Origin: Bacteroidota bacterium
Lineage (GTDB): Bacteria; Bacteroidota; Ignavibacteria; Kapaibacteriales; UBA961
Assembly: GCA_020852855.1 (NCBI GenBank)
Contig: JADZAA010000041.1
Location: forward strand, 1 to 40,908
Length of the DNA stretch: 40,908 bases
Reading direction: 5' to 3'
In this document: positions 35,689-37,940 of the stretch, piece by piece
How the letters are laid out: every line of letters starts with the position of its first letter
Numbering within the stretch: the stretch's first letter is position 1
Made by a program: the position numbers and the translations under genes
The notes under the pieces: model-generated
Database searches by the model: none
What the model was told of the DNA's origin: nothing
The model's input: only the letters and a program-made list of their open reading frames with translations

Positions 35689-35799
35689 ATTTGTAGAATA
35701 ATCTGGACGATAGTTTCTGCAAATTACGGCTTGGATTTTCAAAACAACAAAATTTTCTATACTTTTGGCATTGCTTGTTGTATCAAACATAAAAACCCG

Positions 35800-36567
35800 A
35801 TGATTCTTATAGCCGGCCCGTGCGTTGTCGAATCGTTCGACTTGCTTTGTGAAGTTGCGGAGACTATACTGCCTCTTGCACAAAAGCATAATTTCCGTTT
35901 TGTGTTCAAATCTTCCTATAAAAAGGCAAATCGAACAGATGTTTCATCATTTACCGGTATTGGCGATGAGATAGCTCTTGATTTTATCAATAGAATCGGG
36001 CGTGAATACAATGTACCTGTTTTAACCGATATTCATTCGGTGGAGGAGGTCGCCGTTGCCGCGCCTTATGTTGATATTTTGCAGATACCGGCTTTTCTTT
36101 GCCGACAAACGGAGCTTTTGCAAGCGGCCGGGTGCTCAGGCAAAACGGTGAATATCAAAAAGGGGCAATTTTTGTCACCACAAGATATGGCCGCCGCGGC
36201 CGCAAAGGTTACGGCAACGGGTAATTCTTCCGTGTGGCTGACAGAGCGTGGTACTTTTTTTGGTTATCGTGACCTTGTTGTAGATTTTCGGTCTCTGGGT
36301 ATAATGCGTCAAACAGGTTTTCCGGTGATTTACGATACAACACATTCCGTTCAACAGCCCGGATCCGCTGCCGGAAAATCCGGCGGTTTGCCTCAATTTA
36401 TCAGACCATTGGCACGTGCAGCAGTAGCTTATGGAATAGACGGACTGTTCATTGAAACGCATCCGAATCCACCCGATGCGAAAAGCGATGCCGCTACTCA
36501 ATATCCTTTGCAAGGAATGGCGGAACTTTTAGAAGAACTTGCTGCTATAAAAAGCGTCGTGCATTGA
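35800..36567 (+). CDS. kdsA: 3-deoxy-8-phosphooctulonate synthase (KDO-8-P synthase)
   Basis: KdsA condenses arabinose-5-phosphate with PEP to make KDO-8-P for LPS. In the 255-aa protein the segment I-A-G-P-C-V-V-E-S carries a Cys at the position that in metal-dependent enzymes binds the metal (the metal-independent ones have Asn). FKSSYKKANRTD, VPVLTDIHS and DILQIPAFLCRQTELL follow. NIKKGQFLSP, ERGTFFGYRDLVVDFR and D-T-T-H-S-V-Q-Q-P-G follow, and it ends IETHPNPPDAKSD. All are family signatures. ATG 35800 matches the family start. The 71-bp repeat array starts directly after its stop codon (36568). Confidence 0.96.
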   Translation: MILIAGPCVVESFDLLCEVAETILPLAQKHNFRFVFKSSYKKANRTDVSSFTGIGDEIALDFINRIGREYNVPVLTDIHSVEEVAVAAPYVDILQIPAFLCRQTELLQAAGCSGKTVNIKKGQFLSPQDMAAAAAKVTATGNSSVWLTERGTFFGYRDLVVDFRSLGIMRQTGFPVIYDTTHSVQQPGSAAGKSGGLPQFIRPLARAAVAYGIDGLFIETHPNPPDAKSDAATQYPLQGMAELLEELAAIKSVVH

Positions 36568-36865
36568 GCGGCACACGGATAACGTAGGAATGAATCCGTT
36601 AAAATCCGTACAATCCGTGTCATCGGCGTGCTTTTGTTGCGGCACGCGGATAACGCAGATAGGACGGATAATCACGGGAATAAATCCGTGTCATCGGCGT
36701 GCTTTTGTTGCGGCACACGGATAACGCAGATAGGACGGATAATCACGGGAATAAATCCGTGTCATCGGCGTGCTTTTGTTGCGGCACACGGATAACGCAG
36801 GAATGAATCCGTTAAAATCCGTACAATCCGTGTCATCGGCGTGCTTTTGTTGCGGCACACGGATA
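36568..36865. repeat. Tandem array of four 71-bp palindromic repeats, A-B-B-A, plus partial fifth
   Basis: Units lie at 36568-36638, 36639-36709, 36710-36780 and 36781-36851, each exactly 71 bp, with a partial fifth from 36852. All share the ends GCGGCACACGGATAACG and GTGTCATCGGCGTGCTTTTG. Units 1 and 4 share one core (AATGAATCCGTTAAAATC and so on) and units 2 and 3 another (GATAGGACGGATAATCACGG). Each has the inverted pair ACACGGAT/ATCCGTGT (one A-to-G change in unit 2). The array fills nearly the whole kdsA to GxxExxY gap of 323 bp and the repeats do not recur elsewhere in this window. Confidence 0.95.
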
Positions 36866-36890
36866 AACTCATAAAACAACAGAGGATAAT

Positions 36891-37289
36891 ATGGAATTAT
36901 TGCACAAAAATATAACCGACATTGTCATCAAAGCATTTTATCAAGTATATAATGAACTTGGTTTCGGCTTCTTGGAGCGAGTGTATCAAAATGCTATGTA
37001 CTATGAACTGCAATCGCAAGGTTTGCTTTGCGAAGCCGAAAAACCAATAAAAGTCTATTACAAAAATTTGACAGTAGGAGATTATCGGGCAGATATTATT
37101 CTGGAAAATAAAATTATTATTGAACTGAAAGCTGCCCAGTCATTAGTATATGAACACGAGTTGCAACTTATCAATTATTTGAAAGCAACAGACATTGAAG
37201 TAGGCCTGCTACTGAATTTTGGAGAAAAGCCGGAGTTTAAACGTAAAATATTTACGAATGAAAATAAAAATAGAAATGAGAGGATTTAG
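36891..37289 (+). CDS. GxxExxY protein, PD-(D/E)XK nuclease fold
   Basis: The 132-aa protein carries the naming motif G-F-L-E-R-V-Y (near residue 25), followed by a nuclease-like core. That core has D-Y-R-A-D-I-I-L-E-N-K-I-I-I-E-L-K-A, which contains the D...E-x-K of the PD-(D/E)XK fold (Asp near 66, E-L-K near 79-81). Members of this family (TIGR04256/PDDEXK_3) are often found next to short repeats; their biological role is not established. The start ATG 36891 follows AGAGGA 6 bp upstream. Base composition appears lower in G+C than the neighbours, which may indicate transfer. It sits between kdsA and lptC, where such a gene would not be expected. Confidence 0.88.
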   Translation: MELLHKNITDIVIKAFYQVYNELGFGFLERVYQNAMYYELQSQGLLCEAEKPIKVYYKNLTVGDYRADIILENKIIIELKAAQSLVYEHELQLINYLKATDIEVGLLLNFGEKPEFKRKIFTNENKNRNERI

Positions 37290-37391
37290 AATCAAACACG
37301 CCGAAATTATAGAGCAGTATGCATTCGCAAAGGCGTATTAACCGCAGTATTCGGATGCGGCCGTAATTTTTATTTTAAGTACAAAGTAAAT

Positions 37392-37940
37392 ATGAGTACA
37401 GCAATAATAAACAGCCGATATTTAATATTTCTCGTTCTGGTGACTGCTTTTGTAGGTTGCAAAAATGAAGCAGGCGATAAAAAGAGCGTTGCCGTTGAGG
37501 TTGATATTCCCATTCATACTATTTGGGATTTTTCCATGACATTGATGGATTCCTCCCGAATTAAGGCTACTATAAGCTCAGCACGTGCCATAGTGAATGA
37601 AAAGGGACAAGAAACTACACTTGACAGTGCAGTAAAAGTTGAATTTATGAGTGTATACTCGCGCAGGGTTGGAATGCTTACGTCCGATAGTGCCAAAATA
37701 GACGACCGTACACGTAATATGTTCGCTTACGGAAATGTTAAAGTTGTTTCCGACAGTACAAACGTTATACTTACTACACCGATGTTAATGTGGAATAACG
37801 GAAAACAATTACTTTTCACAACCGAGAAAGTGCATATCGTTACTCCTACGGAAATTATTGACGGCATAGGATTTGAGTCTGACCAATACCTGAAAAACTA
37901 TAAAATATTCCGCGTCAGCGGCATTAAACATCTTCAATAA
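37392..37940 (+). CDS. lptC: LptC-like LPS export lipoprotein
   Basis: The 182-aa protein has a lipoprotein-type signal (L-V-L-V-T-A-F-V-G-C; Cys near residue 23). A LptC-like beta-jellyroll follows, with F-S-M-T-L-M-D-S-S-R-I-K-A and G-Q-E-T-T-L. It continues with M-L-T-S-D-S-A-K-I-D-D-R-T-R-N-M-F-A-Y-G-N-V and I-D-G-I-G-F-E-S-D. In the LPS export system LptC bridges LptBFG to LptA. The family's usual position after kdsA/kdsC agrees, but here a GxxExxY gene and repeats intervene. lptA, lptB and kdsC are not in the window. tpiA follows 12 bp later. Confidence 0.82.
   Translation: MSTAIINSRYLIFLVLVTAFVGCKNEAGDKKSVAVEVDIPIHTIWDFSMTLMDSSRIKATISSARAIVNEKGQETTLDSAVKVEFMSVYSRRVGMLTSDSAKIDDRTRNMFAYGNVKVVSDSTNVILTTPMLMWNNGKQLLFTTEKVHIVTPTEIIDGIGFESDQYLKNYKIFRVSGIKHLQ

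Follow-up and report, generated by a model that had tools for sequence, protein, structure and literature searches.

Clade-specific word hairpins beside GxxExxY nuclease-fold genes suggest a two-part selfish DNA element

Why do four hairpin repeats of identical length stand directly before a small nuclease-fold gene, in an otherwise ordinary run of kdsA, lptC and tpiA? We addressed this question for a 40,908-nt stretch of a Bacteroidota genome of the order Kapaibacteriales (GCA_020852855.1; hereafter the window). A first-pass annotation had placed four exact 71-bp units, in A-B-B-A order, ahead of a GxxExxY gene of the PD-(D/E)XK fold. The features of the locus are as follows.

35779..36567, + strand: kdsA (context; NF003543/TIGR01362 above cut-off)
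36568..37391, + strand: whole insertion (array, gene and 102 bp) between kdsA and lptC, 824 bp
36568..36638, + strand: hairpin unit A1, left words 1-2, right words 4-1; starts at the first base after the kdsA stop codon
36639..36709, + strand: hairpin unit B1, left words 1-4, right words 2-1
36710..36780, + strand: hairpin unit B2, 1/71 bases different from B1
36781..36851, + strand: hairpin unit A2, 1/71 bases different from A1
36852..36866, + strand: start only of a fifth left arm, 15 bp (GCGGCACACGGATAA), in array register and preceding the GxxExxY gene
36891..37289, + strand: GxxExxY gene, 132 aa, PD-(D/E)XK nuclease fold (profile matches, AlphaFold2 model)
37392..37940, + strand: lptC (context; profile matches)

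The four units start at 36568, 36639, 36710 and 36781 and form the sole tandem array that TRF finds in the window, and profile matches confirm tpiA as they do kdsA and lptC, so that both the array and its surroundings are as first described. The A-B-B-A order is also right: the copies of each type differ at a single base, and A and B agree in the initial 20 and final 27 bases and have different 24-bp cores. The inverted pair ACACGGAT/ATCCGTGT, which had been assigned to every unit, is exact in three of the four, B1 instead reading ACGCGGAT. Beyond the window gene, no right arm matching the fifth left arm was found (inverted-repeat score 17, equal to background), and an Rfam search returned no match. 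A genome-wide search located the 71-mer nowhere else in the window's genome, so these are not common repeats lacking a link to GxxExxY genes. Hairpins of the same word grammar are likewise limited there to the array, apart from one chance-like match.

The two unit types can be related to a single parent. Summing the common prefix (20 bp), the two cores (24 bp each) and the common suffix (27 bp) gives 95 bp, and the full unit at another GxxExxY locus, L097, measures 96 bp. Judging from the sequence, A and B look like opposite 24-bp arm deletions of one 95-bp hairpin, which would explain why they have equal lengths and two different cores. The order A-B-B-A could then have come from duplication of B between two A copies, and the mirror arrangement proposed earlier becomes unneeded. 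Reading A as an inverted B core was set aside as weak (score 13 against a null 95% point of 12).

Comparison with relatives places the array and gene between neighbours that usually touch: in most order-level relatives the start of lptC is only a few bases away from the kdsA stop, often with a 4-nt overlap, and for this reason we interpret the 824-bp stretch as an insertion. Among nearer, same-family relatives, several have abutting kdsA and lptC and others have a different gene downstream. GxxExxY presence among relatives is patchy (18/61). The window gene has a GC content of 0.33, the window as a whole one of 0.455, and the nearest proteins detected, at 68-71% identity, come from Bacteroidota and a Methylococcaceae genome. 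The earlier description of the repeats and gene lacked this insertion between normally abutting genes, as well as the arms that lie on both sides of such genes elsewhere.

The annotation of the gene itself holds. The protein matches TIGR04256 over its full length (E 1.9e-39, 134.6 bits against a cut-off of 35, positions 2-114 of 116) and PF13366 (E 1e-40, 139.2 bits against a Pfam cut-off of 22), and its AlphaFold2 model (pLDDT 92) has the PD-(D/E)XK fold. Structure comparison gave a best Z of 8.9, with Cas4 SSO0001 and restriction-endonuclease-like folds nearest among many ties. The motif residues G26xxE29xxY32, D68, E78xK80 and Q92xxxY96 are invariant in the two alignments inspected, and superfamily membership follows from the predicted fold together with the catalytic residues D68, E78, K80, Q92 and Y96. 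DNA cleavage would fit this fold and these motifs, which fall short of proof. GxxExxY genes occur in 148 of 296 sampled genomes of this phylum, and those within one genome are mostly distinct rather than repeated copies. Plasmid or phage carriage was considered and rejected, with six plasmid records all below 60% identity, no phage match and two loci on viral contigs.

To ask how general the arrangement is, we scored 130 GxxExxY loci by aligning each upstream flank to the reverse complement of the downstream flank, with 513 neighbour genes and mismatched loci as controls. Strong arms (score of at least 40) flank 37.7% of the 130 loci; in the controls the proportion is 1.2% for neighbour genes and 2.3% for mismatched loci (p about 6e-40). 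By autocorrelation, these arms are runs of ~8-bp words at 9-11 bp spacing, as at L018, which reads TTTTTTGACACGGATTGAAGAGGATTTCACAGATTACACGGATT, gene, AATCCGTGTAATCCGTGAAATCCTCTTTAATCCGTGTCAAAAAA; loci from Nitrospinia, Deltaproteobacteria and Methylococcaceae have the same architecture. Elements that carry a gene are located in operons, at the 3′ ends of genes, and in 40 of 45 loci the left arm edge is no more than about 40 bp from the upstream stop codon. Tandem hairpin arrays also adjoin other GxxExxY genes, for example at L097 (96 bp x 7.8 before the gene, 90 bp x 5.1 after it).

The wording of the arms follows the protein. Protein identity correlates with arm similarity (rho 0.53; permutation maximum 0.09), the words being ACrCnGAT in the window's (FLE) clade and CrCnRAG in the GLLE (LLE) clade. 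The window-clade arm consensus is roughly ATrGAACrCnGATGACrCnGATTnnACnGATTTTCrCnGATT, and its four words recur in the window's long left arm (GGCACACGGATAACGCAGATAGGACGGATAATCACGG). At least four ACrCnGAT-type words are present in 79% of FLE-clade flanks versus 8% of control windows, and CrCnRAG words in 85% of LLE-clade flanks versus 7.5%; because the word definitions were derived from these arms, the test lies in the cross-clade contrast rather than in raw enrichment. In that contrast the other clade's words stay at background in each clade's flanks, a double dissociation of word density. Furthermore, within multi-gene genomes all 25 of 25 distinct testable loci match their own clade's words. 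This includes the window's genome, whose second GxxExxY gene (L005, G000:C66) has ACAAAG-type words and its own downstream array (75-bp x 3.8). Flank similarity at 50-70% protein identity would probably not be expected of neutral DNA. The suggested link between gene and repeat thus extends far beyond this locus: in 79-85% of cases a GxxExxY gene is surrounded by cognate words, compared with about 8% of control windows. The refuting conditions set out with the first-pass annotation did not overturn this link.

Hairpins that follow the same word grammar are also found without a gene, both in tandem and dispersed. Multi-copy dispersal is clear in a Prevotellaceae bin (G389), likely in a Planctomycetaceae bin (G382, the genome of L139), slight in G378 and absent in the window's genome. 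In G389, about 30 gene-less hairpins are spread across the assembly; by hand tally, 26 of the 27 outside called ORFs are about 45 bp or less from the 3′ end of a gene, and divergent gene pairs flank none of the 27. Covariation of the arms at the two degenerate word positions (65/76 with 45.7 expected; 56/76 with 40.3 expected) exceeds 2000 shuffles, and the hairpins' resemblance to the arms of the genome's own GxxExxY gene is good but not best (ranks 3 and 5 of 91). The G382 family has the common core GATATTCGCAAGATCAGAAAATA, with hairpins also on both sides of its GxxExxY gene.

A HlyD-permease junction in genus g11 captures turnover. It measures 28 bp and is empty in G051, and each of four relatives carries a different GxxExxY element there, from which we conclude that the junction's content changes between related species. 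The upstream proteins of G020 and G046 share 99% identity over 200 residues, whereas their GxxExxY proteins share 63% identity and the arms differ. At the same junction in G028 (L245), the insertion has replaced the C-terminal residues of the HlyD-like protein upstream. The one empty-junction comparison gave no clear target-site duplication, its flanks having diverged.

Together, these findings suggest a two-part selfish DNA element, composed of the PD-(D/E)XK nuclease GxxExxY and of short-word hairpins that the nuclease recognises, a reading to which we assign a probability of roughly 0.6. The best reading is of a pair like REPIN-RAYT in which the enzyme is a PD-(D/E)XK nuclease, with cleavage and movement supplied by inference. 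GxxExxY would bind its cognate words, as duplex or extruded hairpin, and cut at them; repair or recombination would then place copies of the hairpins at new gene ends, in some cases with the gene enclosed by two arms. The window would show a local and partly decayed case, with array and gene inserted at the kdsA-lptC junction, a tandem increase in hairpin number, and a loss from each 71-bp type of 24 bp in one arm of the 95-bp parent. Of these steps, movement by GxxExxY itself is the chief conjecture. Counting against the reading, no right arm lies beyond the window gene, the GxxExxY genes of one genome are mostly not copies of each other, the G389 hairpins match the arms of their own gene well but not best, multi-copy dispersal is clear in one genome, and no target-site duplication was identified at the empty junction compared. 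The earlier idea that the protein recognises the palindrome, perhaps as a minimal repeat-spreading element, fits the match between clade and word and the dispersed hairpins, though binding is so far conjecture.

Another transposase, or host recombination, might instead move the hairpins, with the GxxExxY gene merely benefiting. Such passenger status would suit genes that do not form multicopy families and a fold that is not that of a classic transposase, but we consider it unlikely, since word type tracks the GxxExxY clade at all 25 testable loci, Y1 transposase genes of the same genomes have unrelated flanks, and G382 and G378 possess hairpins with no Y1_Tnp found. An HUH transposase was specifically rejected as the hairpin partner, as its flanks differ.

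The arms might also act in RNA, like those of a 23S rRNA intervening sequence, pairing around the ORF in the operon transcript so that RNase III excises the element and the host is spared. Several features agree with this: elements lie between operon genes, the upstream gene is co-directional in 45 of 53 elements (baseline 74%), and four-helix-bundle genes of the intervening-sequence family located outside rRNA also sit between inverted tandem-word arms. Arm mismatches, however, have no G-U bias (154 wobble-type and 157 A-C-type), a small extra set even leaning the opposite way (25:57). Folded as lone RNAs, the window units are barely above shuffles, only B1 reaching z about -2, and RNA excision does not account for clade-specific wording. 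We therefore hold an RNA-level element to be improbable, and the wobble test equally weakens the proposal of RNA hairpins in the kdsA-lptC transcript. Because this test counters selection for sense-strand RNA pairing, recognition or copying at the DNA level is left.

Local regulation, with the repeats as operators or terminators controlling the GxxExxY gene, has little probability in our view. Every window unit does end in TTTTGTT with a terminator-like score (four matches), but arms lie on both sides of many genes, in arrays and dispersed without a gene, and T-runs after the right arm are rare elsewhere (6/70), which makes a terminator role specific to the window copy. Within 36616-36850, each unit has a + strand terminator-like stem followed by CTTTTGTT, and this might affect kdsA-lptC read-through. 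Finally, a host-serving repair or defence system with incidental repeats, to which a weak Cas4 resemblance might point (PADLOC E 8.6e-4; Z 8.9 at 4.7 Å rmsd), is very improbable given the patchy presence among relatives, the junction turnover, the low GC of the gene and the clade-specific repeats.

The readable clade-to-word code predicts, directly and in a form open to test, the substrate of a nuclease family that is uncharacterised so far. It would also account for a large part of the imperfect intergenic repeat of CACGGAT-, CGCAAAG- and CACAGAG-type in these genomes. More tentatively, at somewhat short of even odds, such elements may constitute a separate multi-phylum class of miniature mobile DNA, in which every clade of the ~130-aa PD-(D/E)XK nuclease has an 8-bp word grammar of its own that it reads, and spreads word-hairpins to the 3′ ends of genes, with four-helix-bundle elements using a parallel architecture. 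No paper describing the GxxExxY-hairpin pairing was found in the literature searched, and the two papers there that name GxxExxY do so in passages unrelated to repeats.

How does this pair compare with known systems? With Cas4 and RecB-like PD-(D/E)XK nucleases, GxxExxY shares the fold core and the motif order GxxxE, D, ExK, QxxxY, though it is shorter. Like MITEs and insertion sequences, GxxExxY elements have terminal inverted repeats and gene-less short derivatives; unlike them, they lack a classic transposase, their arms are degenerate word arrays, and no target-site duplication was identified at the one empty junction, with its diverged flanks.

For 23S rRNA intervening sequences with an S23/four-helix-bundle ORF, origin and function have been called unclear (PMC4990558). 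They resemble GxxExxY elements in having a small ORF between inverted repeats and in being insertions tolerated inside a transcript. The window element differs in lying between kdsA and lptC and in its unrelated PD-(D/E)XK fold, and GxxExxY arms differ in having no RNA-pairing signature by the wobble test. As a separate observation, TIGR02436 four-helix-bundle genes of the intervening-sequence type (L149-L178) lie between inverted tandem-word arms (AGTATTG, AGTGATTAG, GTTAAAC), with scores of at least 36 in 10 of 26; relative to the upstream stop codon, the left edges fall between -25 and +51 bp. The four-helix-bundle parallel bears on the origin of the 23S rRNA intervening sequences.

The closest working analogue is REPIN-RAYT, in which the enzyme genes are single-copy and mutually distinct within a genome, each adjoined by its own repeats, which pair up in inverted orientation as hairpins and are present in extragenic space without the gene as well (Bertels and Rainey 2011, PMC3116915). 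A Y1 transposase gene amid GGTGCAGCGCACC-type palindromes in G389 (L295) apparently belongs to an independent REP-like family. GxxExxY hairpins are usually in few copies and often tandem, in contrast to REPIN-RAYT. The GxxExxY pair is not a REPIN-RAYT member, because both enzyme and repeat grammar differ: a PD-(D/E)XK nuclease (PF13366) replaces the HUH tyrosine transposase, and runs of 8-bp words replace GTAG/CGTC-tagged REPs. What the two have in common is their organisation, with distinct enzyme genes in a genome, each accompanied by its own hairpins, and further hairpins that stand without a gene, the dispersal of these being clear in G389, likely in G382 and slight in G378.
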